Source: Gemmatimonadales bacterium
GTDB taxonomy: Bacteria; Gemmatimonadota; Gemmatimonadetes; Gemmatimonadales; GWC2-71-9
Direction: 5' to 3'
DNA: 51,764 bases
Assembly: GCA_036500345.1 (NCBI GenBank)
Contig: DASYCE010000003.1
Coordinates: 1-51,764 of the forward strand
Part shown: positions 35,464-51,087 of the stretch, piece after piece
Layout of the letters: every line of letters starts with the position of its first letter
Numbering within the stretch: position 1 is the first letter of the stretch
Notes under the pieces: generated by a model
What the model saw: only the letters and a program-made list of their open reading frames with translations
Told to the model about the DNA's origin: nothing
Database searches by the model: none
Made by a program: the position numbers and the translations under genes

Positions 35464-37881
35464 TCAGAAGAAGTTGCCCAGGCGGAAATGCACTTTCCAT
35501 CCTGGTGCCGGGTGACCCAGCAGGTCAGTCTTGTCGATCCCGTATGCCAGGTCCACGCCGATCGGACCAAGCGGGGAAACTAATGCCGCGCCGATACCGA
35601 CGCCGCGGAAAAGTCTGGTCGGATCGTACTGTCGCACCGTGCGATAGACATTGCCCGCATCGAAGAACGCGTCAACGTAAATCGCCTGGTTGATCCGGGC
35701 GCCAGCTTCAGTGGTAAACTCCGCGTACGAATTGCCGAACGAGGCCGGCGTGGCGCTCGTCGACGACGCGTTCGGATCGTAGCCGTTCGGCGTGATCGAG
35801 AATTCGTCATATCCGCGAAGCGGGATCCCGTACTGGACGCCACCCATGCTGTAGAGTTCGGTGAAGAACGAGCCGGTGTTGCCGAAGATGAAGCCCGACT
35901 TCGCCGTGATACCGAGCGTGAACTGGACGCCGCCGCCGAGCGAGCCCCGCTTGCCACCCAGCGTGCCGAGCGGCGTGAACCAGCGGCTGTCGATGTTGAG
36001 CTTCTGGTAGTCGGCATTCCCGCCCAGCGGACCACCGTTCTGCTCCACGCTGACGTTGACCATGTTCCCGGCTGTCGGGAACGGCAATCCGATCCGGGTG
36101 TCGCGCAGGAACGAGAGACCGAGGGTCGACCGCGTGCACGGGGCGCACTGGAACGCCTGCTGCAGGTCAACCGATCCACCAGAATAGCGGACGTGCTGCA
36201 AGCCGTAACTCGCGAAGACGCGCGAATAGCGTGACCCGAGGAACGGAAATCCGACCTGCACCGACCCACCGGTCGAATTCTGCTGGCCCAGATCGCCGAC
36301 GACGTACCGCAGCTGCGAATCGTAGAGCGTCGCCGTCCCGGACATCCGCGAATCGAAGAGCGTCGGATCGGTGTAGCTGAGCTGGAAGTCGGTGATGTTC
36401 TGCCCGAACTGCCACTGCAGCTTTCCGTGCTTTCCGCGGCCGAAGAGGTTCGGTTCCTCAAGTCCGAGGAAGCCGCCGAGGCCGGTCCCCTGTCCAACCG
36501 ACGCACCGAAGTTGATGTTGCCGGTGTGCTTCTCCTGGACGCGGAATGTGATGTCGACGGTCGACCCGTCCTGTGACGGATTGATATCCGGATTCGGCAT
36601 CGGCTGCTGGAAGAATCCGAGGTTCCCGATGTTCTGGTACGAACGGATCAGCTTTTCACGGTTGAAGAGTTCACCCGGCAGGAGCACCACCGCCTGGCGG
36701 AGGATCCCGGTGTGGGTCACCTCGTTCCCGGCGAACTCGATCTTGCGCACGATCGCCGGGTTCCCTTCGGTGATCCGCCACCGCAGATCGATGACCGGTG
36801 AACCATCGGCCAGCGTGCGGGGTGATTGCTCTGCGCTGATCTGCGGGAACATGTAACCGTTGTTCTGATAGAGCTCGGTCGCCTTGCTTGTCGCGTCTTC
36901 CCACGCCGACCGATTGTAGACCGATCCGATCATCTTCCCGCTGCCGACCTGGTCCGGGGTGACGAAGGGAATCAGCGTCGCGAGCTCTTCGCTCGAGAAT
37001 CGCCGGTTGCCGATGATGTTCACCGTGCCCACGTGATAGACCGGGCCTTCTTCCAGCGTCATCCGCAGAATCGCCTTGGGCGAATCGGGCTGGGCGATCA
37101 GTGTGTCGTGCACCACCTGCATGTCGATCATCCCGTGCTGGCCATACCAGGTGGGGAGATGATCGCGCACGTCGCGATCGACCTTCCGTTCGTCGTACGA
37201 GCCCGACCGGAACCACAGGAATCCTTCCGGCTTGGAATCCATCTCCTTGATGAGCTGATCGGCTTTGAAATGTTCGTTGCCGGCGATTTCGACCCGCGCA
37301 ATCGTCACGCGGCTCCCCTCGACGACCGAGAAGAGCAGTGTGACGCCGTCCTTGACCGGCGTTTCGGTGACCGTGGTATGCGCGGCGTAGAAGTTCGCCT
37401 TGTGATACGTCGAGTCGATCAGGTAGCGCGCGTTCGCTACCGCGGAACGATCGAGTGGTCGCGCCTTCACCAGATGGATGAGATCCTCGATCTGGTGGGC
37501 GGGGATCTGCTCGGGGCCCACGACCTTCCAGTCGATCAGGAGCGGCCGCTCCTTCACGCTGATCACCAGCACGAATTTGGTGCCGAGGATCTGCTGCACG
37601 ACTTTCACATCGTCGAACTGCCCGGTGCTGTACAGATTGTCGATTGCCTTGGCGACGTCATGATAGGTCGGCGTCGAGTGCGGCTGCAGCCCCGACACGA
37701 GCACGATCTGCGATGCGGCGTTGCGCACGTTTCCCTGCACCGCGATGCTGTCGACCGGCGGCGTCGGGGGCGGCGCGGCTGCCTGCGTCTGCGCGACGGC
37801 GCGCCGCGGGAGCAGCAGCGCCGCGGCGATGACCGCGACCACGCCCACGGCACGGATGACGCAGGTTCGAATCCTTCTCAC
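35464..37881 (-). CDS. bamA: Outer-membrane assembly factor BamA
   Basis: An 805-residue protein. The signal peptide (1-30) is followed by five POTRA domains (about 40-430; SIAVQGNVRN, RVTIARVEIAGNEHF and HVGTVNIIGNRRFSSEE mark their strands) and a C-terminal 16-strand barrel. The last residues WKVHFRLGNFF form the terminal-Phe beta-signal. VDLAYGIDK and the conserved L6 VRGF-like segment (PLRGYDEFSI near 700) are present. It inserts barrel proteins into the outer membrane. It starts 8 bases after clpC. Confidence 0.96.
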   Translation of the reverse strand: MRRIRTCVIRAVGVVAVIAAALLLPRRAVAQTQAAAPPPTPPVDSIAVQGNVRNAASQIVLVSGLQPHSTPTYHDVAKAIDNLYSTGQFDDVKVVQQILGTKFVLVISVKERPLLIDWKVVGPEQIPAHQIEDLIHLVKARPLDRSAVANARYLIDSTYHKANFYAAHTTVTETPVKDGVTLLFSVVEGSRVTIARVEIAGNEHFKADQLIKEMDSKPEGFLWFRSGSYDERKVDRDVRDHLPTWYGQHGMIDMQVVHDTLIAQPDSPKAILRMTLEEGPVYHVGTVNIIGNRRFSSEELATLIPFVTPDQVGSGKMIGSVYNRSAWEDATSKATELYQNNGYMFPQISAEQSPRTLADGSPVIDLRWRITEGNPAIVRKIEFAGNEVTHTGILRQAVVLLPGELFNREKLIRSYQNIGNLGFFQQPMPNPDINPSQDGSTVDITFRVQEKHTGNINFGASVGQGTGLGGFLGLEEPNLFGRGKHGKLQWQFGQNITDFQLSYTDPTLFDSRMSGTATLYDSQLRYVVGDLGQQNSTGGSVQVGFPFLGSRYSRVFASYGLQHVRYSGGSVDLQQAFQCAPCTRSTLGLSFLRDTRIGLPFPTAGNMVNVSVEQNGGPLGGNADYQKLNIDSRWFTPLGTLGGKRGSLGGGVQFTLGITAKSGFIFGNTGSFFTELYSMGGVQYGIPLRGYDEFSITPNGYDPNASSTSATPASFGNSYAEFTTEAGARINQAIYVDAFFDAGNVYRTVRQYDPTRLFRGVGIGAALVSPLGPIGVDLAYGIDKTDLLGHPAPGWKVHFRLGNFF

Positions 37882-37889
37882 CAGCGGCT

Positions 37890-40370
37890 TCAGGCGCCAG
37901 TCCCCGTCAAAACCCGGAAGACAAGCTTTTCACCGTCGGGTGCCACGTCGACCTCGATCTCGTCGCCGTGCGTGAAATCACCGCTGAGGATTCGTTCGCT
38001 GAGCGGATCTTCGACGTACCGCTGAATTGCGCGACGCAACGGCCGGGCACCGTAGCTCTGGTCGTAGCCGTGTTCGACCAGGAACTCAAGCGCCGCCGCC
38101 GTGAGTCTGACTTCGTCGCCGACCCGCCGGGTGACATCCTTGAGCAGCACGCGAACGATTTCGGAGATGTGCTCGCGCGTCAGCGGATGGAAAACGATGA
38201 CGTCGTCGAGGCGATTGAGGAACTCGGGATTGAAGACCTTCCCGATTTCGTCCTTGACCGTCTCCGTCATCTTGTCGAACGTCTGCTTCGAATCGCTGGC
38301 GTGGAAGCCGAGACCGGTTCCCTTCATCAGGTCGCGAGCGCCGACGTTCGACGTCATGATCACGACGGTGTTCTTGAAATCGATGACCCGTCCGTAGTTG
38401 TCGGTGAGGTGGCCCTCGTCGAGCACCTGCAGCAGGATGTTGAAGACGTCAGGATGAGCCTTTTCGATTTCGTCGAGGAGCACGACGGAATACGGCTTGC
38501 GCCGAACCGCCTTGGTCAGCGTCCCCGAATCCTCATAACCGACATAGCCCGGCGGCGCACCGATGAGGCGCGACACCGAAAACTTCTCCATGTACTCCGA
38601 CATGTCGACGCGGATCAGCGCACTCGGGTCGCTGAAGAGGAATCGCGCCAGCGCGCGCGCGAGCTCCGTCTTCCCGACGCCGGTGGGCCCGGAGAAGATG
38701 AACGACCCGATCGGCCGGTTGGGATCCTTGAGTCCCGCACGCGAACGACGGATCGCGCGCGACACGGCATGGATCGCTTCGTCCTGGCCGATAACCGACA
38801 CGTGGAGTTCGTCCTCCATGCGCAGCAACCTCGCCGCTTCGGCTTCCTGGATCCGGGTGACAGGGATCCCCGTCCACCGGCCCACGATGAACGCGATCGC
38901 CTCTTCGTCGATCACCGGGCGCTTGGTCTGCCGTTCGGCCTCCCATTCGACCTGCACCTGGCGGATCTGCCCCTGCAGCTCGCGTTCGCGGTCGCGGAGC
39001 GCCGCGGCCTTCTCGAAGTTCTGCTCGCGCACCGCTTCTTCCTTGTCGGCGGTGACGTGTTCGAGCTGCAGCTTGAGTTCGCCGATCTCTGCCGGCGGAT
39101 GCTGCGATGCGAGCCGCGCGCGGGCGCCCGCCTCGTCGATCACGTCGATCGCCTTATCCGGCAGGAAGCGGTCGGTGATGTACCGTTCGGCGAGTTCGGC
39201 CGCAACTTGCAGCGTCGCATCGGGGATGACGACGCGGTGATGTTCCTCGTACTTCTTGCGCAGCCCCTTCAGGATCTCGACCGTCTCGGGCACGCTCGGC
39301 GGATCGACCATGACGGTCTGGAAGCGGCGCTCGAGTGCACCGTCCTTCTCGATGTATTTGCGATATTCATTCAGCGTCGACGCGCCGACACATTGCAGTT
39401 CACCGCGCGCGAGCGCCGGCTTGAGCATGTTGGAGGCGTCAATCGCGCCCTCGGCGGCACCGGCGCCGACGAGCGTGTGGAGTTCGTCGATGAAGAGGAT
39501 CACGTTCTTGCTCTGCGCGATCTCGTTCATCACCGCCTTGAGCCGCTCCTCGAACTGGCCGCGGTACTTCGTCCCGGCGATCACGGCAGCCATGTCGAGC
39601 GACAGCACGCGGTGATCGCGCAGCACATCCGGGCACTGGGCGTTGGCGATCAGCAGCGCCAGCCCTTCGACGATCGCGGTCTTCCCCACACCGGGCTCGC
39701 CGATCAGGACCGGGTTGTTCTTCTTGCGGCGCGCCAGGATTTCCATGACGCGCTCGATCTCCTTCGCCCGTCCGATCGTCGGGTCGAGCGCCCCTTCGGC
39801 TGCGAGGATCGTAAGATCACGGCAGAAATGATCGAGCGCAGGGGTCTTCGATTTTTTCTCGGTCTTGGGTGGAACTGCCTGCGGACCACTGGCGGCCTGA
39901 CCGCTGGTCGGCTGTCCCTGCGGCAGGTCGCTCCCCAGGAGCCGCAGCGTCTCCGCGCGCGACTGTTCGAGCGTGACACCGGCGTCGGTGAGGACCTGGG
40001 CCGCGATTCCCTTCTCCTCGCGCAGCAGACCAAGGAGCAGGTGCTCGGTGCCGACATACGAGTGGTTGAGTTCGCGTGCTTCCATCATCGCGAGCTCGAG
40101 CACCTTCTTGGCGCGAGAGGTGTACGGCAGTTCGGGGCCGGCCGCCGTGGCAGCTTTCCCCTTCTTGACCGTCTCCTCGATCTTCTGCTGGATGTCTTCG
40201 AGTTCGACACCGAGATTGGTGAGCACCGCCGCCGCAACGCCTTCACCTTCGCGGATCAGGCCGAGAAGAATGTGCTCCGTGCCGACGTATTCGTGATGCA
40301 GCCGCGCCGCCTCTTCGCGGGCCATCTGCAGGACTTTGCGCACCCGGTCGGTAAAGTTGTATCCGTTCAT
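37890..40370 (-). CDS. clpC: ATP-dependent Clp protease ATP-binding subunit ClpC
   Basis: An 826-residue AAA+ unfoldase. The two N-domain repeats both keep the GTEH glutamates (E32 and E109) that in Bacillus ClpC bind phosphoarginine. AAA1 has GEPGVGKTA (about 222-230), a UVR-type middle domain is near 430-475, and AAA2 has [11 protein letters not shown] (about 555-565). With ClpP (not in the window) it degrades proteins tagged by McsB. It overlaps mcsB by 4 bases. The usual ctsR repressor gene is absent from this neighbourhood. Confidence 0.97.
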
Positions 40371-41443
40371 GGTCGTTCACCCTCCTCGAACAGCCGGCGC
40401 ACGAACGACGCGCGATGCACCGGCAAGGCATCGTCGTCCAGCGACACACCGGCATCGCGCGCGATGTGCGCATTCTGCGTCAGCACCAGCAGCCGGTTCA
40501 GTAGCTGCAACGGGATCGCGGGAAGGATCCCCGTCGTGACACCCAGGCGGACGCTGCTCAGCAATCCCACCACTTCGTCAAACGTCAACGCGCGAGCGTG
40601 CCGCAGCACTGCCCACGCGCGCCAGACGCTGTCCTCGAGTGCGGTCGATGCGTCGCGGCGCACCTGATCGCGCGCCCGCAACTCGTAATCCATCACCTGC
40701 CGCACCATTCGCGACAGATGGTCGAGCAACTCGGCTTCGGACTTTCCCAGCGTCGTCTGATTGGAGAGCTGGAAGAGGCTCCCGATCGCCTCGCTTCCCT
40801 CGCCGAACAACCCGCGCGATGTCAACCCGACCTGCATCAGACCCTCGAGAACCTTGCCGATTTCCCGCGTCATCACGAGGGCGGGAAGATGAATCAGCAC
40901 CGACGCCCGCAACCCCGTTCCGACGTTCGTCGGACACGCCGTAAGATAGCCGAACTCAGGGTGGAAGGCGAAGGAAAGCCGTACGCCAAGTTCGCGATCT
41001 GCCAGCTCGGAAATGCGGTAGGCAGCCGCGATTGCCAGCCCGGATTGCAACACCTGCAACCGCAGGTGGTCCTCCTCGTTGACCATCACGCTCGCCGTCC
41101 GGCCGAGGAGGAGCGCAGCCCCGCTCCGGACCCTCCCCTGCGTGTCAGTCCCTGCCAGGTTCCGCGACACCAGCTGGCGCTCGTTGAGCCAGTGCCGGTC
41201 AGCGGCCGGCATCGTATCGAGCCGATGCAGCACCGCATCGGCCAGCGACGGCGCGCTGTGCGCCGCGGCCAGCACGGCACCGACGATCACCTCGCGCTGC
41301 TCCGGAACGTTCCGCCCGCGAAACGGCTGCCCGGTCAGATTGCGCGCAAGCCGGATCCTGGTGGAGAGCACCATCGCGCTCTCCGGTCCGCTGGCATCGA
41401 GCCACGGCATCCCGCCGTCGGGAATCACCCCGGCGCCGCTCAC
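40367..41443 (-). CDS. mcsB: Protein arginine kinase McsB
   Basis: A 358-residue member of the phosphagen-kinase superfamily. It phosphorylates arginine side chains of proteins, marking them for ClpC. The ATP-binding arginines lie in VLSTRIRLARNLTGQPF (about 20-36), and later blocks YLTACPTNVGTGLRASVLIHLP (about 174-195) carry the reactive Cys and substrate loop. The C-terminus has the phosphoarginine-reading RxxxVMxxP-like helices. Length is normal. It is coupled on both sides (mcsA, clpC) by 4-base overlaps. Confidence 0.96.
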   Translation of the reverse strand: MSGAGVIPDGGMPWLDASGPESAMVLSTRIRLARNLTGQPFRGRNVPEQREVIVGAVLAAAHSAPSLADAVLHRLDTMPAADRHWLNERQLVSRNLAGTDTQGRVRSGAALLLGRTASVMVNEEDHLRLQVLQSGLAIAAAYRISELADRELGVRLSFAFHPEFGYLTACPTNVGTGLRASVLIHLPALVMTREIGKVLEGLMQVGLTSRGLFGEGSEAIGSLFQLSNQTTLGKSEAELLDHLSRMVRQVMDYELRARDQVRRDASTALEDSVWRAWAVLRHARALTFDEVVGLLSSVRLGVTTGILPAIPLQLLNRLLVLTQNAHIARDAGVSLDDDALPVHRASFVRRLFEEGERP

Positions 41444-41955
41444 ACGTCCTCGGGGGCGCGCAATTGATCGCGAAGCTCGGCCGCGCGCTCGAACTGCTCC
41501 GTATCAATCGCGATCCGGAGCTGCTCTCGCAGTTCCTCCCGGGAACGCGCCCGCATCTCCGTCGGTGACACGTCCGCCGTCACGGGGCTGGAATACGTCG
41601 CACCAGTGTGCCGCGTGGCACCATGCAATCGCCGCAACAGATCTCGCAGTGGACGTTCGAACGTGATCCAGCACTGGGCACAACCCACTCGTCCCGATGC
41701 CCGGAAATCCTGCAGCGTCGCACCGCATTCCGGACACGTCTCGCCGGCGGCGACCGCGGTCGCGATGGTGGCCCCGCTCTTCCCCATCGCAGCGAGGAAC
41801 GCGCCGAGCGGCGTCTGGGTCACGGTCGCTTCGGTCTCGATTCCGCGCTCCGCCGCGCATTTGCTGCAGAGATGCAGCGTGGTGACGTTGTCGCCCTCCA
41901 CCTGGGTCAGCCGGACCACCGCTTCCCCTTCGTGGCAGATCTGGCACTGGTTCAT
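41440..41955 (-). CDS. mcsA: McsB activator McsA (UvrB/UvrC motif protein)
   Basis: A 171-residue protein with two pairs of zinc-knuckle cysteines. C4/C7 with C30/C33 form the first site, and C74/C77 with C92/C95 form the second. A C-terminal UVR motif covers about 138-170 (EELREQLRIAIDTEQFERAAELRDQL). McsA activates the arginine kinase McsB. The layout matches Firmicutes McsA. It overlaps lolD by 4 bases. Confidence 0.94.
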   Translation of the reverse strand: MNQCQICHEGEAVVRLTQVEGDNVTTLHLCSKCAAERGIETEATVTQTPLGAFLAAMGKSGATIATAVAAGETCPECGATLQDFRASGRVGCAQCWITFERPLRDLLRRLHGATRHTGATYSSPVTADVSPTEMRARSREELREQLRIAIDTEQFERAAELRDQLRAPEDV

Positions 41956-42650
41956 GCCAACGTGTCCGCCGTCGCCGGTCGAAGGACGCCATCCTCCAGC
42001 GTCAACACGCGGTCCGCTCGCTGCGCCAGGGTTCGGCTGTGCGTCACCGCAACGACTGCGGTGCCGCTCGATTGCGCCAGCGTCGTGAGCAGGTGCAGCA
42101 TGTCACCCGCCGTATGCGGATCGAGATTGCCGGTCGGTTCATCGACCAGGAGGACCGCCGGCGCCGTGACGAGCGCGCGCGCCAGGGCGACCCGCTGCTG
42201 TTCGCCGCCCGACAACAGCGTGACTCGCGAACTGGCGCGCGGCATGAGACCGACCTCGCTGAGCGCGCGGTCGGCACGCTCGCGAGCGGCCATCATCGAC
42301 TCTCCGCCGATCAGCCAGGGCATCATGACATTCTCTCGAGCGGTGAAATCACGCAGCAAGTGATGAAACTGGAAGACGAATCCGATCCGGCGATTGCGGA
42401 CATGCGCCAGTTCGGCATTGTCCATCGACTGGTACGAACGTCCCTCGAGTGTCACGTCGCCGGTATCAGGCCGGTCGAGTCCACCGAGCAGGTGGAGCAG
42501 CGTGCTCTTCCCGGATCCGCTGGCACCGATGATCGCCACGAATTCGCCCTTCGTGACGATGAGATCAAGATCGTGCAACACCGTGAACGCGACACCGTCG
42601 CCGCCGATGAAGCGACGGCCGAGCTGCCGGGCCTCCAGGATGCCGCTCAT
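41952..42650 (-). CDS. lolD: Lipoprotein-releasing ABC transporter ATPase
   Basis: A 232-residue ABC ATPase. The Walker A is IGASGSGKST (about 39-48), the Q-loop is FQFHH, the signature is LLSGGEQQRVALARAL (about 140-155), Walker B is VLLVDEPTGNLD, and the His loop is AVTHS. With the LolC/E permease next to it (4-base overlap) it should power release of lipoproteins from the inner membrane. MacB-type ATPases are close relatives; the FtsX-like partner favours Lol. Confidence 0.92.
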   Translation of the reverse strand: MSGILEARQLGRRFIGGDGVAFTVLHDLDLIVTKGEFVAIIGASGSGKSTLLHLLGGLDRPDTGDVTLEGRSYQSMDNAELAHVRNRRIGFVFQFHHLLRDFTARENVMMPWLIGGESMMAARERADRALSEVGLMPRASSRVTLLSGGEQQRVALARALVTAPAVLLVDEPTGNLDPHTAGDMLHLLTTLAQSSGTAVVAVTHSRTLAQRADRVLTLEDGVLRPATADTLA

Positions 42651-43912
42651 TCCGCCCGGATCGCTTCCACCGGCAGGAGCGACGCCGCGCGACGAGACGA
42701 CGGAATGGTCGCCAGCACAGCCACCGCGATGCTCGCCACCACGACCACAAGCACATCGGTGATTTCCACGCGGACCGGGAGCCGGTCGATGAAATAGATC
42801 GTCGGATCGATATGGATCCGCTTGTCGACCAGAAACGCGACCGCCAACCCGAGGACCAGTCCCAGACCGGTGCCGACGAGTCCGACCACCGCGCCTTGCG
42901 CGAGAAAGACGCGAGCAACGCCGCGAGCCGGCAGCCCCATCGCCTCCAGAATTCCGATCTCCCGTGTCTTGAACGCGACGACCATCGTGAGCGTTCCCAC
43001 GATGTTGAACGCCGCCACGATCATGATGAAGAAGATCACCAGGCCCATCGCGAGCTTTTCCAGCTGCAACGCAGAAAAGAGCGTGCTGTTCTGCGATTGC
43101 CATGTCTCGACGCGGAAGGGATAGCCGAGCGCTGCGGTGAGTCGATCACCGACCGTTGCAACCCGCCACGGATCGCGTACTCGCACGCCGATTGCCGACA
43201 CGGCAGTGTCGAGCCCGACGAATCGCTGGGCCGTGGCGCGGTCCATCACCACGTAGGAGTTGTCGTAGATGTACATCCCGGTCTCGAAGACACCGGTGAC
43301 TTCCATCGACCAGCTGCGGGGGACGTCGAACTCACCGGTGATCCGGTTGCGATGCGTCACCGGCGGAATCATCGAGATGATGTCGCCGGGGTATGCCGAC
43401 AGATGATCGGCCAGTCGCTTGCCAATCACCACGGCGCCGTCGACGCTGTCCTTCGGCAGTGTCGCCTTGAAATTGAGATCGCCTTCGGTCATCGCGCTGT
43501 CGAGATGAATGACCTGGCGCGTGCCGACGCCCGGCTCGAGCCCCGCGACGAAGACGCCCTCGGGAAAACCCGCCGAATTCATCACCAAGGATTGTGCGTC
43601 GACTTCGGGCGCCGCGGCCACGACGTCAGGGTCGCGCCGGATCCGCGCGAGTTGCGCCTGCCAGTCGGCGATCTGGAGTGTGGTACCGAAGGTGAGCACG
43701 CGAAGCTCCGGCGACCCGACCAGGATCCGGTCGCGCAGGTCGTTGCGCAAGCCGTTCATCACGCCGAGGACGACGATCAGCGCGCTGACGCCGAGGGTGA
43801 TGCTGCCGATCGAGATCACGGTCTGCAGCGAGGCGTTCCGGGTACCACGCTGCCCGCGGAGGTACCGCAACGCAATGCGTCGCTCAAGCGCCGTCGGCCA
43901 CCAGGAGAACAC
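42647..43912 (-). CDS. Lipoprotein-releasing ABC transporter permease (LolC/LolE)
   Basis: A 421-residue permease. One N-terminal helix (about 29-51, ISIGSITLGVSALIVVLGV) is followed by a large periplasmic domain (about 52-285) and three C-terminal FtsX-type helices (about 290-320, 335-362 and 385-405). LDSAMTEGDLNF and LLPVEAIRAE are typical of LolC/E. Only one permease gene is present, so it may act as a homodimer, as in LolF/CD types. It precedes lolD in the same run. Confidence 0.92.
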   Translation of the reverse strand: MFSWWPTALERRIALRYLRGQRGTRNASLQTVISIGSITLGVSALIVVLGVMNGLRNDLRDRILVGSPELRVLTFGTTLQIADWQAQLARIRRDPDVVAAAPEVDAQSLVMNSAGFPEGVFVAGLEPGVGTRQVIHLDSAMTEGDLNFKATLPKDSVDGAVVIGKRLADHLSAYPGDIISMIPPVTHRNRITGEFDVPRSWSMEVTGVFETGMYIYDNSYVVMDRATAQRFVGLDTAVSAIGVRVRDPWRVATVGDRLTAALGYPFRVETWQSQNSTLFSALQLEKLAMGLVIFFIMIVAAFNIVGTLTMVVAFKTREIGILEAMGLPARGVARVFLAQGAVVGLVGTGLGLVLGLAVAFLVDKRIHIDPTIYFIDRLPVRVEITDVLVVVVASIAVAVLATIPSSRRAASLLPVEAIRAE

Positions 43913-43921
43913 GTCCGCCCC

Positions 43922-45463
43922 TCACGCCCCCGCGGGCGGACGAGGCTGATCGCTCTCGGGGCGCATCGCAGGAAAGAGGATCACGTCGCGGATCGAACCC
44001 TGATCGGTGAGGAGCATCACCAGGCGATCGATTCCCAGGCCGAGCCCGCCGGCCGGCGGCATCCCGTATTCGAGCGCGCGCACATAGTCGGCATCGATCG
44101 GGTGGGCTTCCTCATCACCCGCGGCGCGCTGGCGCACCTGGTCCTCGAATCGCGCCAGCTGATCGTCGGGATCATTCAATTCACTGAACGCATTCGCCAG
44201 TTCGGTACCGTTGACGAACAGCTCGAAGCGCTCGGTGAGGCGCGGATCACTCCGATGCGCTTTCGCGAGCGGCGAGAGCGGCCGCGGATAGTCCACCACG
44301 AACGTGGGCTGAATCAGCGTCGGCTCGAGCGTGTGCTTGAACAGTTCGTCGAGCAGGCGGGCGCCGGCAAGGTCACGGACCGCATCCGCCGATTCGCCGG
44401 CGTCGCGGAGAAACTGGCGCAGTTGTTCCTCACCCGCTTCGAGGGGATCGAACCCGGCGATGGCGCGGATCCCGTCGACGAATCCGACGCGGGCAAACGG
44501 CGCGGCAAAATCGATCGTCGTTCCGGCGGACGTCACCTGTTGACCGCCACGACATTCCTGCACGACCGCCACCAGCAGCTGCTCGACCATCGTCTGCATC
44601 TCGTGATAATCGGCGTACGCCTGATACCACTCCAGCATGGTGAATTCGGGGTTGTGGGTCCGGTCCATCCCCTCATTGCGGAAGTCGTGGCCGATCTCGT
44701 ACACCCGCTCGAATCCACCGACGAGGAGTCGCTTGAGATAGAGCTCGTCGGCGACCCGCAGGAAGAGCGGCATGTCGAGCGCTCGATGATGCGTCATGAA
44801 CGGATGCGCCGCGGCACCCCCGTACATCGGCTGAAGGACTGGTGTCTCCACCTCGAGAAAGCCCCGCGCATCCAGGAAGCGGCGGATCGTCGCGATCGCT
44901 TTGGCACGCAGGATGAACGTCTGCCGCAATTCCGGATGCACCGCGAAATCCGCGTACCGCTGGCGATAGCGGACTTCGGGATCGGTCAATCCGCCGTGCA
45001 CCACCGTCGTCCCGTCGGCGAGGCGCTCGGTCTTTCCGCGCGGCAGCGGCCGCAGCGACTTTGACAGTAACTCCACCGCAGCGACCGCAATGGTGATTTC
45101 GCCGGTGCGGGTGCGGAACAGCGCCCCGCTCACACCGATATGGTCATCGAGATCGAGCAGTTCGACCAGGTCCCACGCCGCGCCCAGCGTGTCCTGCTTG
45201 AAGTAGAGCTGGATCCGCCCCGACTGATCCTCGAGATGACCGAAGATCGTCTTCCCCTGGCCGCGCAACGCCACGATCCGTCCCGCGACGTCCACCTGCG
45301 GCCCCGCATCGGGCGTGGCATCATTCCATGCCGCGAGCGCCGCCGCGGCGGAATGGCTCCGTTCGAACCGGTATGCGAACGGCCGCACCCCGAGCGCTTC
45401 GATGCGCGAGCGCTTCTCCCGTCGAGCCTCTTCGACATAGGTGCGTTCGAGGGGATCGATCAC
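43922..45463 (-). CDS. lysS: Lysyl-tRNA synthetase, class II
   Basis: A 513-residue synthetase. The N-terminal OB-fold (about 60-165) carries VDVAGRIVALRGQGKTIFGHL. Motif 2 is the block GHDFRNEGMDRTHNPEFTML (about 273-292), and motif 3 is LGLGIDRLVMLLTDQGSIRD (about 474-493). The start is coupled to the prfB stop by an ATGA overlap. prfB-lysS adjacency is also seen in E. coli. Confidence 0.97.
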   Translation of the reverse strand: MIDPLERTYVEEARREKRSRIEALGVRPFAYRFERSHSAAAALAAWNDATPDAGPQVDVAGRIVALRGQGKTIFGHLEDQSGRIQLYFKQDTLGAAWDLVELLDLDDHIGVSGALFRTRTGEITIAVAAVELLSKSLRPLPRGKTERLADGTTVVHGGLTDPEVRYRQRYADFAVHPELRQTFILRAKAIATIRRFLDARGFLEVETPVLQPMYGGAAAHPFMTHHRALDMPLFLRVADELYLKRLLVGGFERVYEIGHDFRNEGMDRTHNPEFTMLEWYQAYADYHEMQTMVEQLLVAVVQECRGGQQVTSAGTTIDFAAPFARVGFVDGIRAIAGFDPLEAGEEQLRQFLRDAGESADAVRDLAGARLLDELFKHTLEPTLIQPTFVVDYPRPLSPLAKAHRSDPRLTERFELFVNGTELANAFSELNDPDDQLARFEDQVRQRAAGDEEAHPIDADYVRALEYGMPPAGGLGLGIDRLVMLLTDQGSIRDVILFPAMRPESDQPRPPAGA

Positions 45464-46564
45464 GCCGCCTTCGCTCCGAATCGCTTGAGGTACGCTTCGA
45501 TGAACCCATCGAGATCGCCGTCCATCACGCGCTGGACGTCGGTCACCTTGAGTTCGGTGCGGTGATCATTCACCATCGTGTACGGCTGGAACACGTACGA
45601 GCGGATCTGGTTTCCCCACGAGTTGTCGGTCTTGGTCGCTTCCACCAGCGCGCGCGCAGCCTCCTGCTCCTCGAGCTTCAGCTGATAGAGCGCCGCTCGC
45701 AGCATCTTCATCGCCACGTCACGATTCTTGAACTGGCTCCGCTCCTGCTGGCAGGAGACCACGGTGCCGGTGGGCATGTGCGTGAGGCGCACGGCCGATG
45801 ATGTCTTGTTGACGTGCTGCCCGCCGGCGCCGGACGCACGGAAGACGTCCATCTTGATGTCTTCCTCGCGCAGGTCGATCTCGATCGTGTCGTCGACGTC
45901 GGGATAGACGAACACCGACGCGAACGACGTGTGGCGCCGAGCCTGGCTGTCGTACGGCGATATCCGCACCAGACGATGCACCCCCTTCTCGGCCTTGAGA
46001 TACCCGTATGCGTACTGACCCTTGATCTCGATCGAGACCGATTTGATTCCCGCCTCCTCGCCGGCCATCAAATCGAGAATCGTCACTTCAAATCCCTTTC
46101 GCTCGGCCCACCGGACGTACATGCGCATCAGCATCTCCGCCCAATCCTGCGATTCGGTGCCGCCGGCGCCGGGGTGGATCGTAAGGATCGCTCCACGGCC
46201 GTCATCCGGTCCCTGCAGCATCGTCTGCAGTTCGAACCGCTCCAGCTGATCGACAACGCGAGCAAGCTCCCCCTGCAGCTCGGCCGCCATTGATTCGTCC
46301 GGCTCGGAGGCAAGCAGCTCCGACAGCCCCGACACGTCGTCGAGTCTCGACTGGAGCTGATCGTGCGGGGTGATCCACCCCTTGAGGGTACGGATTTCTT
46401 CGACCTGCTCTCGCGCCCGGGCGGAGTCCGCCCAGAACGCAGGATCGGCCTGGCGAGCCTCGAGGTCCCGGAGCCGCGCTACCTTGCGATCGAGGTCAAA
46501 GAAAGTCTCGGAGTTCGGTGAGCCGCTGCTTCAACTCGACGACACGGTCGGCCAGATCGGGCAT
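45460..46564 (-). CDS. prfB: Peptide chain release factor 2 with programmed +1 frameshift
   Basis: RF2 of about 367 residues, read in two frames. The first 22 codons run from ATG 46564 to CTT at 46501-46499. Next comes the in-frame TGA (46498-46496) in the classic CTT-TGA-C slip site, and the second frame runs from 46497 to the stop at 45460. The protein has GGQ in ASGAGGQHVNKTSSAVR (hydrolysis) and SPY, where E. coli has SPF, in RISPYDSQARRHTSF (stop-codon reading). The frameshift lets RF2 set its own level. No strong AGGGGG-type element is seen just before CTT. The stop overlaps lysS. Confidence 0.95.
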
Positions 46565-46624
46565 GGATCGAATCCCTGAAAAGAATGCCCAAAGATAGCC
46601 GCACACCGCGCGGCATCGGCATCC

Positions 46625-47341
46625 TTACCCGAAGAGCGAACGCCCCTCTGCAAGAATCTCGTTGAGCGCTTCGGTGAAGTACGGCGTGTTGGCGGCGACG
46701 TCGTGTCCCACCTGCTCGCTGTACTCCTCCCAGCTCTTCCGGATCTCTTCGCCGAACAGCTCCTTCAGGTTTCCCTCCGCGAGCCCGCGCTGACGCTTCT
46801 CTGGATAGTAGACCACCAGGTCCGACACGAGCGCCCGCGCCAACCGCCGGGCCCGCGTCGACGGGTCCTGCTGCAGGAATGGGTTGTTGAACCGGCCAGC
46901 CTGCGACGCCGCGGACGACGGAGGCGGCGCGGCGGCGGGCGGCGGAGCTGGTGAAGTGGCCGGGGCGGCCGCCGCTTCAGCGGGCGCGGGTGGCTGCGGT
47001 GCCGGTGGCGCTGCCGCGTTCCCCATCCCGATCCCGTACGCCGGGACCGGGTCGGCAGCGGGAGCCACTTGCTGGTGGACCGGGATCGCCGGGGGCTGTG
47101 GCGGAGCCGCAGCCGGCTGGTTCGTTGGGGGTGCCGGAGGAGCCTGCGACGGCTGGGGCGCTGTCGCCGGCGCGGCCAGTTCGACCGGAGCCAGTGACGG
47201 CGATGGTGGCGCGGCAATCGGCGGTCGCCGGACCGCGATCAATCCCGAACAGACTGAGCAGCGGGCGCGGACCCCCTGCTCCGGGACCTTGGCCGGGTCC
47301 ACGCGGAACACCGTGGCACATTGCGGGCAGGTAACGTTCAT
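46625..47341 (-). CDS. MJ0042-type zinc-ribbon protein with Pro/Ala-rich linker
   Basis: A 238-residue protein. Residues 2-38 are an MJ0042 zinc-ribbon with C5, C8, C28 and C31 (VTCPQCATVFRVD, RCSVCSGLIAV). About 45-155 is a Pro/Ala/Gln-rich disordered linker. The last 80 residues are a helical domain of unknown type (STRARRLARALVSDLVVYY, SWEEYSEQV). Start ATG 47341 has GAGGAAC upstream. Such proteins in Deltaproteobacteria and Gemmatimonadota are linked to signalling or gliding, but the role here is unknown. It is followed, 7 bases upstream, by the GGDEF gene. Confidence 0.8.
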   Translation of the reverse strand: MNVTCPQCATVFRVDPAKVPEQGVRARCSVCSGLIAVRRPPIAAPPSPSLAPVELAAPATAPQPSQAPPAPPTNQPAAAPPQPPAIPVHQQVAPAADPVPAYGIGMGNAAAPPAPQPPAPAEAAAAPATSPAPPPAAAPPPSSAASQAGRFNNPFLQQDPSTRARRLARALVSDLVVYYPEKRQRGLAEGNLKELFGEEIRKSWEEYSEQVGHDVAANTPYFTEALNEILAEGRSLFG

Positions 47342-47348
47342 CGGTTCC

Positions 47349-48338
47349 TCAAGCGCTGCGGGCGTCGCGTCCGCCGGGGCCGCTCCGGATCTCCATGTCT
47401 CCCCGGCGGCGGTCAACGACGAACAGCGACCCGGGAAGTGTTTTCGCGTAACTCTTCATTTCGGTCGCCAGTTCACTCACCTGCGCTGGATGAGTGAACC
47501 GGTGATGCTGATTGGTGACGACGCCGATCGAGAGCGTCATCAATGGGACCCGGTGCAACTGTCCGCGCCGGTCCTTGCCAAAAAAATACCCTGCTCGCCT
47601 GTCCTGCTCACTGTACTGCAGCGGGATCAGTTCGTCGAACACCGTGAGAATCTCGGCGCAGACCGGCGCGAAGTCGTTGAACGACGTGACAAAGATGAAA
47701 TCGTCGCCACCGATATGCCCCACGAACCCGTCCGAGCCCAGCAGGCCGCGAACAACATCGTGAAGGACGCGGGAGAGGATGTAGATCACCCGGTCGCCAT
47801 CGTAATAACTGTATCGGTCGTTGAATTCCTTGAAGTGATCGAGGTCGGCATAGCACACGGCAAAGGCGCCGCCGCCGTCGAGTCGCCGCCGGATTTCGCG
47901 TTCGATTTCGTTGGTTCCCGGCAGGCGCGTCGACGGATGCACCGCAACATCGCGTTCGGTGCGCACCGTCAGCGCGTCGAGTCGCGCGCGCTGCTCCGCA
48001 GCATCAACCAGCGGAGAGAGGACCTCGTCCGCTCCAGCCTCGTACCATTTGACGATCGACCCGGCGTCGTGCTGGTCGGTGAGGACGGTCATCGGAACGA
48101 TCGCCGTCGACGGATCGCCCTTGAGCCGATGGACCAGCGCAAGACCGTCCTCATGACACGAGCGTTCGTCGATGAAGAGCAGCGCACCTCGCCCCCGCAA
48201 TACCAGCGTGGCGATGTCGACCGGGTCCGCGTGCTGCTCGATCCCGAGCCCGCGCGCGTCGGCCCAGCGCGCGACCAACTCGGGCGGCGGGCGATCAGCT
48301 GCGCCGCAGTACAGGATGACGCGACGCTGATGTGGCAC
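47349..48338 (-). CDS. Receiver-like plus GGDEF-domain protein
   Basis: A 329-residue two-domain protein. Residues about 5-115 resemble a response-regulator receiver: ALLFIDERSC holds the likely phospho-Asp, but the Lys of the KP switch is replaced by SP in VLSPL. The GGDEF domain (about 145-310) has ADLDHFKEFNDRYSYYDGD and the site HIGGDDFIFV (GGDDF instead of GGDEF). No RxxD I-site precedes it. It may make or just bind c-di-GMP or related dinucleotides; activity is uncertain. Confidence 0.83.
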   Translation of the reverse strand: MPHQRRVILYCGAADRPPPELVARWADARGLGIEQHADPVDIATLVLRGRGALLFIDERSCHEDGLALVHRLKGDPSTAIVPMTVLTDQHDAGSIVKWYEAGADEVLSPLVDAAEQRARLDALTVRTERDVAVHPSTRLPGTNEIEREIRRRLDGGGAFAVCYADLDHFKEFNDRYSYYDGDRVIYILSRVLHDVVRGLLGSDGFVGHIGGDDFIFVTSFNDFAPVCAEILTVFDELIPLQYSEQDRRAGYFFGKDRRGQLHRVPLMTLSIGVVTNQHHRFTHPAQVSELATEMKSYAKTLPGSLFVVDRRRGDMEIRSGPGGRDARSA

Positions 48339-48392
48339 GCCAGAACTCCGGAGGAGGGGCTGACGGCAACGTAGACTCGGCGTTGGAAGCCG

Positions 48393-50033
48393 TCAAATGA
48401 ACCACGCCGCCGCGGCAATCATCAGGTACAATGCGAGCAGTTGGACCCCTTCGAGCCAGTGGGACTCGCCATCGAGAACGATCAGGGCGGAGACGATGAC
48501 GGCCGCAGCCAGCGCCCCGACCTGGAACCCCGGGAAGACCAGGTTCATCCCCGATCCGATCACGCCGCCGACCAGCACCAGAATCGGCGCCACCAGCAGC
48601 GCGACCTGGGTGCTCGACCCCAGCGCGATCTGGATCGCCAGTTCAATCCGCCCGCGCCGCGCAGCAACGATTGCGCTGGCGTGCTCCGCCGCGTTGCCGA
48701 CGATCGGTACGACGATCAGGCCGAGGAACCCTTGCGATACGCCGAGTGATCGCGTCACCGGTCCAATAGTCTCGACCAGAAACTCCGATTCGACAGCGAC
48801 CAGCACCGTGGCAACCGCCAGCACCACGACGGTGATCCCCAGTGGCCAGCGAGTGTGCGGATCCTCCCCTGACGCTGCGCCGGTAAAGATCCGGCGGTGC
48901 GTTCGGAGGGAAAAGAGCAGTGAGGCGAGGTAGATGATGGCGAGGAGGACGGCCACGAGTTTCGACAGGGCCTGGAGGTGCGAATCAGCCGGTGTCCCGC
49001 GCAGCATCGACGGGAGCATCAACGCCGCGACAGCAATCGCGAGCATGGCGCTGCTCATTCCGGCAGCGGTGCGATTGAACTTCAGAATCGGCTGGCGGAG
49101 GCCGCCCGCGAGGAGCGCTGCACCGAGAATCAGCAGCAGGTTGCCGAGGATCGACCCGGTGAGCGACGCCTTCACGAAATCGACGTAGCCGGCATGCAAC
49201 GCAGCAATCGCCACGATTACTTCCGTGGCATTTCCGAACGCTGCGTTCAGCACCGCACTGACCGTCGGTCCGGCATGATCGGCAAGATGCTCCGTGGCCT
49301 GCGCGATCGCCCCCGCAAGAGGAATGATCCCGAGACAGGTCACCGCGAACACCCACCCCGAGCTCACGCCGAGGTATTTCAGTCCCACCGTCAGCGGCAC
49401 GGCGAGGAGGCCAATCCAGAGCACCCAGGAATGCTCTTTCGGCGCAGCAGTTGGAGCCGGTGCTGGACGCGGAGGCGGTGCGAGGCGCGGGCGCTCCGGA
49501 GCCCGGGCTTCGGGAATGTCGTCGATTTCAGGATCGCGTTTCCGCGCTACCGGTGCCGGTTGCACCGGTTGACCACTGCGTTCGCGCGGCGGAGATCCAT
49601 CCCGCCGTTTTCCGGACCGCGCCGCCGGAGGAGGCGCAACGAGTCTGCGTAGCTCTGTCGGTCGAGCCTTTGCCATCGTCAACGCGCGCGCGATCGCGCC
49701 GCGCGGTTCCTTGATCAGGGCGAGAAAGAGATCGTCGCCGTTCGGATCGCGCCCTGCGACGGTCGCCGACTCAGCTGCGGCGGCCAGCGCGCGTTCGGCA
49801 TGGGAGGACAAGGCATTCGATGTCTCGCCTTCGCCGGCTGGACGCGGTGCTCGCCGGCTCGCGATGATCGTCCGGAATTCGTCGGCGGAAATCCCCGCCT
49901 GCACCAGCGCCTGCTGGGCTAGACCATCGTCCAGGAGCCACGCAAGAAAAAGATGCTCCGCTCCCACGAATCCGCTTCCCTGGGCGGTCGACTCCTCCAC
50001 CGCCCGGGTGCGCAGCGTTTCAAGGCTTGTCAT
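48393..50033 (-). CDS. Fusion of Clp N-terminal repeats to a CaCA-type Ca2+/H+ antiporter
   Basis: A 546-residue protein. Residues 1-60 and about 75-132 are two Clp-N (Clp R) repeats; the first keeps GAEH with Glu26, and the second has GDDL where ClpC has GTEH. A charged Pro-rich linker spans 135-200. Residues 201-546 are a CaxA/ChaA-like antiporter with about 11 helices. The two alpha-repeats GNATEVIVAI (267-276) and VGNAAEHASA (445-454) form the cation site. The start is ATG 50033. Antiporters of this family export Ca2+ or Na+ for H+. A Clp-N front is not part of the family as known to me. Confidence 0.88.
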   Translation of the reverse strand: MTSLETLRTRAVEESTAQGSGFVGAEHLFLAWLLDDGLAQQALVQAGISADEFRTIIASRRAPRPAGEGETSNALSSHAERALAAAAESATVAGRDPNGDDLFLALIKEPRGAIARALTMAKARPTELRRLVAPPPAARSGKRRDGSPPRERSGQPVQPAPVARKRDPEIDDIPEARAPERPRLAPPPRPAPAPTAAPKEHSWVLWIGLLAVPLTVGLKYLGVSSGWVFAVTCLGIIPLAGAIAQATEHLADHAGPTVSAVLNAAFGNATEVIVAIAALHAGYVDFVKASLTGSILGNLLLILGAALLAGGLRQPILKFNRTAAGMSSAMLAIAVAALMLPSMLRGTPADSHLQALSKLVAVLLAIIYLASLLFSLRTHRRIFTGAASGEDPHTRWPLGITVVVLAVATVLVAVESEFLVETIGPVTRSLGVSQGFLGLIVVPIVGNAAEHASAIVAARRGRIELAIQIALGSSTQVALLVAPILVLVGGVIGSGMNLVFPGFQVGALAAAVIVSALIVLDGESHWLEGVQLLALYLMIAAAAWFI

Positions 50034-50041
50034 TGATGGCG

Positions 50042-50215
50042 TCAGGGGAGCGGCAGTGCTTCGTCGATGAGCATGATGGGGATGTCGTCTTCCACCGGGT
50101 ACACCAGCCGGCATGCGTGGCAGACCAACGCTTCATCGGGGCCCGTCTGGTACTCGAGGTCGCCCTTGCACTTGGGGCAGACCAGGATCTCGAGAAGTTG
50201 CGGCGAAAGTGACAT
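50042..50215 (-). CDS. Trm112/YcaR-like small zinc-ribbon protein
   Basis: This 57-residue gene reads [20 protein letters not shown], then [23 protein letters not shown]. Cysteines C13, C16, C32 and C35 form a zinc-ribbon, and the tail [14 protein letters not shown] is the hallmark of the UPF0434/Trm112-like family. Its ATG overlaps the era stop by one base (TGATG), and the next gene starts 8 bases after its stop. Family members are methyltransferase partners or lie near lpxK/kdsB in Proteobacteria. The role here is open. Confidence 0.88.
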
Positions 50216-51087
50216 CACCTTCCCTCGGTGGCAGGGAGCGGAAAGCCGAATCGCGTGAGCGCGCCGGCGTTTCGCCGCCAGTGCGGGAGGACCTTGAGCC
50301 AGGTTTCCAGATAGACCGGCTCGCCGAGAAGCGCCTCGATCCGGCCTCGTGCGTGACTGCCGATCAGTCGAAGGGTCTCGCCGCGCTTGCCGATCACGAT
50401 CCCCTTCTGCGATTCGCGTTCCACGAACAATGTCGCCCGAATGTAAATCGGAGAACGCCCCTCACGGAACTCGTCGACCTCCGCGGCAAATGAGTACGGC
50501 ACCTCGTCTTCGAGGTACTCGAACGCCGCTTCACGGAGGTACTCGGTCACGAAGAATCGGGTCGACTGCGTGGCGAGGTCATCGGCCGGAAAACGGAACG
50601 CACCGGCCGGCAGGCGCTGGCGCAATTCGGCGAGGAGACCGGCGATCGAGTCGGGGTCCTTGGTTGATGTCACAATGGCGCTCTGCCGAAGGCCGGCGGC
50701 GGTTGCCCGCGGGACGAGATCGCCCTTGGTGTAGACCGGCACGACCGGAGCCGGGAAGGCCGGCGCGTCGGGGACGAGTGTGGCAAAGGAGGGCGCCGGA
50801 GCTTCGGTTGCCGGGTGAAGGTGGAGGACGAGATCGGCGGTCGGGAGTGCGTCGAGCGCCAGCGCCCGCATCCGCTGCTGCATCAGGTACCCGGGGTCGA
50901 GCAAGCCGGGGAGGTCGACGAGTTCGATCTGGGTCGCTGCATCGGTGACAATTCCGGTTACCGGCAGGCGGGTCGCCTGCGCCTTGGGTGATACCAGCGA
51001 GAGGTGGGTGCCGAGGATTGCATTGAGGAGCGACGACTTCCCGGCGTTGGGCTTGCCGGCGATGGCTACTCGGCCGAATTGGAGCAT
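50215..51087 (-). CDS. era: GTPase Era
   Basis: A 290-residue 16S-rRNA-binding GTPase for 30S assembly. G1 is [11 protein letters not shown] (about 11-21), G3 is DLPGLLDPG (Leu in place of the usual Thr) and G4 is TKGD. The C-terminal KH domain includes [20 protein letters not shown]. The G3 and G4 variations are conservative, but distinct from E. coli. It lies downstream of the rRNA operon terminator. A 100-base gap before the terminator holds no gene. Confidence 0.94.

Follow-up and report, generated by a model that had tools for sequence, protein, structure and literature searches.

Clp_N domains carry a Glu-His pair that is a general signature of the family, including domains that are not known as phosphoarginine binders. 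The domain also exists outside unfoldases; plant ClpT1, a part of the chloroplast Clp core, has the Clp_N fold without an ATPase and without a transporter. Studies of Staphylococcus aureus ClpC have reported the binding of phosphoarginine at two pockets in which E32 and E106 are crucial, with activation depending more on E106 than on E32, and in resting ClpC the N-domain touches the M-domain and AAA1 via these pockets and K85 (PMC12583610). The closest functional precedent for a Clp_N domain outside an AAA+ ATPase is mycobacterial ClpC2, a soluble DNA-binding repressor that senses and sequesters ClpC ligands and titrates cyclomarin (PMC10030653). Among antiporters of the CAX type, YfkE of Bacillus subtilis has been reported to require both E72 and E255, the loss of E72 abolishing Ca2+ transport (PMC10227063). 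In plant CAX1, the N-terminal domain is autoinhibitory, and the protein also has a signalling role that is independent of transport (PMC12366789). Literature and library searches returned no earlier description of a protein joining Clp_N to CAX. Both halves belong to known families, and it is their combination and its conservation that are apparently undescribed. The window analysed here, a stretch of 51,764 nucleotides from a Gemmatimonadales bacterium (contig DASYCE010000003.1), encodes such a fusion of 546 aa on the minus strand (48393..50033), and 21 further genomes carry it.

Architecture and predicted fold of the fusion

The gene starts with the ATG at 50033, 8 nt past the stop codon of trm112. 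Its first part, aa 1-132 (49638..50033, minus strand), is a double Clp_N domain of the ClpC type. Pfam places PF02861 at aa 11-60 (E 5e-10), and repeat 1 scores 39.8 bits against a gathering score of 20.7; repeat 2 is below the Pfam threshold in the window protein and above it in the relatives at L066 and L069. By sequence, aa 1-138 resemble ClpC N-domains with a best E of 6e-6. An AlphaFold2 model built on an alignment of 17 fusions (mean pLDDT 79.6) folded aa 1-132 into eight helices arranged as two sets of four, the double four-helix fold of the ClpC N-domains of Bacillus subtilis (5hbn, 2y1q) and Mycobacterium tuberculosis ClpC1. In VIA-align 2, aa 1-137 matched ClpC N-domains with Z up to 16.8, including 15.7 for 5hbn, a phosphoarginine complex, and a Z of 15.9 was obtained against ClpT1 (4y0b); middling values of this kind are possible for unrelated helical bundles, and for the fusion sequence and fold are concordant. 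The fold prediction proposed in the preliminary description of this DNA has thus returned the Clp-N fold for the N-terminal part, in agreement with its reading of the first 132 residues as two Clp-N repeats. Unlike ClpC, ClpA and ClpB, the fusion has no Pfam AAA match and hence no AAA+ modules, and it is joined to a membrane transporter. It also differs from ClpC2 in being membrane-bound by its fold and linked to an antiporter, with no match to a DNA-binding domain.

The C-terminal part, aa 200-546 (48396..49436, minus strand), contains two Na_Ca_ex stretches (PF01699, E 4e-38) and scores 327 bits against the TIGR00378 calcium/proton exchanger equivalog, for which the NCBIfam cut-off is 211. 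By sequence it matches VCX1 (E 8e-71), YfkE and CAX1. This part was modelled as a CAX bundle that aligned in VIA-align 2 with VCX1 (4k1c) at Z 45.5 and an rmsd of 2.2 over 344 residues, and with YfkE (4kjs) at Z 43.8, within a range of Z 41-45 for the antiporter half against this group. E271 in the motif GNATE (from G267) and E450 in GNAAEH (from G446) occupy the positions of YfkE E72 and E255, so that both cation-site repeats are present, as the preliminary description had stated. Together with N268, N298, N447, H451, S473 and Q476, these two glutamates are kept in all complete fusions except that of genome G037. The identification of this part as an antiporter holds, with one detail on its extent: residues 133-199 form a linker, and the antiporter begins at about aa 200. 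Lys and Arg residues in the predicted loops number 24 on the side of the N-terminus and 2 on the opposite side, and this positive-inside balance predicts a cytoplasmic location for the Clp_N domain (N-in), the orientation shared with other CAX proteins. Sequence and model together identify the C-terminal half as a complete Ca2+/H+ antiporter of the CAX type, located in the inner membrane and predicted to be working. YfkE and VCX1 differ from the fusion in lacking a folded N-terminal domain, and in plant CAX1 the autoinhibitory region at the N-terminus is short and is not a Clp_N domain.

The two halves are separated by a disordered linker rich in Arg and Pro (aa 133-199; 49437..49637, minus strand; 15% R and 25% P), in which aa 135-195 have a pLDDT below 50. 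Within it lies a conserved linear motif at aa 166-184, RDPEIDDIPEARAPERPRL (49482..49538, minus strand), which contains three Arg. The mean majority fraction within the genus is 0.71 for aa 161-185, which include the motif, vs 0.48-0.51 elsewhere in the linker, and the conservation of this stretch is about equal to that of the folded domains. The motif may possibly serve as an intramolecular ligand of the fusion.

Locus, distribution and evolution

Thirteen genes from era to bamA, the fusion gene among them, follow one another in the same direction (35464-51087, minus strand), with tiny gaps or overlaps between them. The order is era-trm112-(Clp_N)CAX-GGDEF-zinc-ribbon-prfB-lysS-lolC-like-lolD-like-mcsA-mcsB-clpC-bamA, and the run mixes genes for translation, lipoprotein export, the McsAB-ClpC system and outer-membrane assembly. 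The block opens with the GTPase gene era (50215..51087, minus strand; Pfam MMR_HSR1 and KH_2), followed by the trm112-like gene (50042..50215, minus strand; PF03966) directly upstream of the fusion. Directly downstream is a gene for a GGDEF-type protein (47349..48338, minus strand; E 6e-10) with a GGDDF signature, which is 88-89% identical to its counterparts in two genus members and more conserved than the fusion. Further on are mcsA (41440..41955, minus strand; UVR motif and zinc fingers), the protein-arginine kinase gene mcsB (40367..41443, minus strand; PF00217, E 2e-54) with NEEDH and CPTN motifs, and clpC (37890..40370, minus strand), which has its own double Clp_N with both GTEH glutamates and an LGF loop. 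A ClpP gene is present in the same genome. The gaps between the block genes range from -34 to 94 nt, from which co-transcription is plausible.

The preliminary description had drawn attention to the closeness of mcsA-mcsB-clpC, and these genes indeed lie on the same strand (41955-37890), 6.4 to 10.5 kb from the fusion stop. The gene order from era to bamA is kept across the family, and largely across the taxonomic order, with or without Clp_N, and the block that includes mcsA-mcsB-clpC is the same in six genomes in which cax is unfused (G013, G024, G040, G063, G065 and G066) and largely so in G092. As the same order, housekeeping genes included, is common to unfused relatives, cax and mcsA-mcsB-clpC were adjoined before the fusion arose, and their closeness was rejected as a sign of a functional link. 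In unfused G024, G040, G063, G065 and G066, a PorV-like outer-membrane gene stands between trm112 and cax (L040:1784-2773:+, with the equivalent position in L041, L042, L045 and L052); it is missing where Clp_N is fused.

In all, 22 genomes carry the fusion at the corresponding locus (G000, G001, G003-G009, G012, G021, G023, G026, G030, G037, G038, G041, G051, G052, G055, G102 and G104). They represent at least 11 genera, all from the one Gemmatimonadota family to which the window belongs. This count comes from a search of 101 genomes with inspection of the locus, plus G102 and G104; it includes two genes that run into a contig end (G006 and G023) and one with a frame break within the CAX part (G003). 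The preliminary description had named absence from close relatives, as expected of an assembly or frame error, as the observation that would undo the fusion. The homology search has instead recovered it repeatedly, and recurrence on this scale rules out chance and such errors as its source. Three other genomes of the family (G013, G024 and G040) have a cax without Clp_N at this locus, and in G002, G016, G018, G046 and G101 a contig end cuts the locus before the N-terminus. Outside the family, no fusion was present in 40 sampled genomes of the same order, 8 of which had a CAX match, or in 19 further genomes of the same class from outside the order; the distribution as a whole rests on smaller samples. 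One contig scan retrieved close relatives only, namely Gemmatimonadetes MAGs including palsa_1233.

Selection was estimated as pN/pS on six pairs, and the figures given are from the four closer pairs, dS being saturated in the more distant ones. Values were 0.15-0.33 for Clp_N, 0.26-0.42 for the linker and 0.06-0.29 for CAX, which indicates purifying selection on Clp_N. The constraint on Clp_N is laxer than that on CAX in the closest pair, and the CAX part is the slower-evolving of the two. A special case is the fusion of G037 (L077:9340-11163, minus strand), an open frame of 608 aa at the syntenic locus. Its antiporter carries the replacements E271T, N298T, N447A, H451R and S473G, and identity between its CAX half and those of the sisters G102 and G104 is 37%, compared with 75% between the two sisters. 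Its Clp_N is 55% and 53% identical to those of the same sisters, which share 52% between them. The model of this protein retains a high-confidence Clp_N fold and a CAX half of lower confidence. Codon GC1 is 0.78 in G037 vs 0.60 in a sister, which fits relaxed selection on its CAX half. Judged by its residues, the antiporter of G037 looks dead, and gating is thus not the sole role of Clp_N there. This single genome points to a Clp_N domain that matters independently of Ca2+ transport.

Trees of CAX required three changes of state for the fused rows, and a single fused clade had a p-AU of 0.079, at which one origin of the fused CAX is neither shown nor rejected. The position of unfused G013, which branches beside a fused group with weak support, suggests a loss of Clp_N. 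In the Clp_N tree, where support is weak and branches are long, the fusions stand apart from ClpB and are not placed inside ClpC. Most fusions score higher against ClpC N-domains than against ClpB, and the window protein is nearly equidistant. Clp_N was probably captured once, in an ancestor of most of the family in which cax and mcsA-mcsB-clpC were already neighbours.

Two further Clp_N proteins were observed in the family. G008 encodes a stand-alone double Clp_N of 149 aa that lies near ClpC in the tree (L079:1727-2173:-), and G019 encodes a double Clp_N (Pfam E 1e-31) joined to a GntR-type winged-helix DNA-binding domain (E 1e-14; L080:1703-2587:+), possibly a ClpC2-like ligand-sensing transcription factor. 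The occurrence of Clp_N alone and fused to GntR in the same family indicates that the domain is reused as a module. Stand-alone candidates in G047 and G068 were rejected, as they proved to be the starts of ClpB.

Possible roles of the Clp_N domain

The reading we prefer, tentatively and at somewhat less than an even chance, is that a cytosolic, membrane-tethered ligand-binding domain of the ClpC type serves as an N-terminal regulatory and scaffolding module on a CAX predicted to be working. The Clp_N domain would retain the general ligand binding of ClpC N-domains, for exposed peptides, substrates, adaptors such as McsA-McsB, or cyclic peptides. On its flexible linker it would be positionally analogous to the autoinhibitory region of plant CAX1. 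Binding of a ligand may then shift the domain or the linker, with gating of Ca2+ efflux as the result, or Clp ligands may be held at the membrane.

A fairly unlikely alternative, which still deserves weight, is that the CAX half is mainly an anchor and that Clp_N acts as a decoy or scaffold at the membrane, sequestering or concentrating ClpC substrates, adaptors or ClpC-targeting natural products much as a membrane-bound ClpC2 would. The precedent of ClpC2 (PMC10030653) argues for it, as do the stand-alone and GntR-fused Clp_N proteins of the family and the G037 fusion, in which Clp_N has outlasted the catalytic residues of the antiporter. However, G037 is a single case, and the other complete fusions keep these residues under a strong constraint that would be needless for a mere anchor.

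It is distinctly unlikely that the domain is a passenger, a captured helical Clp_N kept for folding or stability without a specific ligand. Its faster evolution relative to CAX and the very variable linker agree with such a history, and the locus works without Clp_N in G013, G024 and G040, so that the domain is not indispensable. Against this stand the purifying selection on Clp_N, its invariant E26-H27 pair and its preservation in G037 after the antiporter had decayed.

The preliminary description had further linked the domain to phosphoarginine, and it had correctly read Glu26 as kept and Asp-Asp (D100, D101) as present in repeat 2. E26 and H27, which correspond to ClpC E32 (the glutamate of pocket 2) and H33, are invariant in 17/17 fusions, and the position of ClpC Thr81 is Ser or Thr in all 17. 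As the Glu-His pair is general to Clp_N, its retention is not diagnostic of phosphoarginine binding. The position of ClpC E106, in pocket 1, is D100 in the window protein and Asp across its genus; it is Glu in 6 of the 17 fusions and lost in the other 11. In the genus, the initiator Met takes the position of ClpC Thr7, a residue of pocket 2, and a search for an upstream start restoring Thr7 found none, the ATG behind trm112 being the same across genus members. The residues would allow one functional phosphoarginine pocket at best. A gated antiporter, in which McsB-tagged proteins or the linker's own Arg would fill the E26 pocket and control Ca2+ efflux, is accordingly a decidedly doubtful reading. 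The conserved E26-H27 and Ser/Thr positions are compatible with it, as are the working-looking McsB, the ClpC and the ClpP encoded in the genome and the Arg-rich linker with its conserved three-Arg motif. These points are offset by the generality of the Glu-His pair, the loss of the E106 equivalent, the Met at the Thr7 position and the ancestral proximity of mcsA-mcsB-clpC, which is common to unfused relatives, and the phosphoarginine link is supported as far as plausibility and no further. The other part of the proposal, in which Clp_N would regulate or recruit, remains the most economical reading. Docking to ClpC, in which Clp_N would mimic the ClpC N-domain, contact the M-domain or AAA1 and recruit or activate ClpC-ClpP at the membrane, or in which the antiporter would be a ClpC client, recalls the contacts of resting ClpC (PMC12583610) and the presence of clpC in the same gene block, but is very unlikely, as the anchoring T7, R9 and K85 are not conserved in the fusions and are the initiator Met, Ser and Glu in the window protein.

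In this architecture an ion antiporter is combined with the domain by which a protein-quality-control machine recognises its substrates, and this union is conserved. The G037 fusion, with an antiporter that looks dead and an intact Clp_N, and the natural absence of the domain in G013 make its role testable by comparison. It is unlikely, though conceivable, that Clp_N ties arginine phosphorylation and Clp proteostasis to the flux of Ca2+, and perhaps of phosphate, across the membrane, with ClpC ligands, phosphoarginine proteins or the McsB-phosphorylated linker gating the antiporter; if so, protein damage would be read out as a change in Ca2+. More generally, if the Clp_N domain of the fusion binds ClpC ligands, it would give a Ca2+ transporter a new type of input, or else be a counterpart of ClpC2 that is bound to the membrane.
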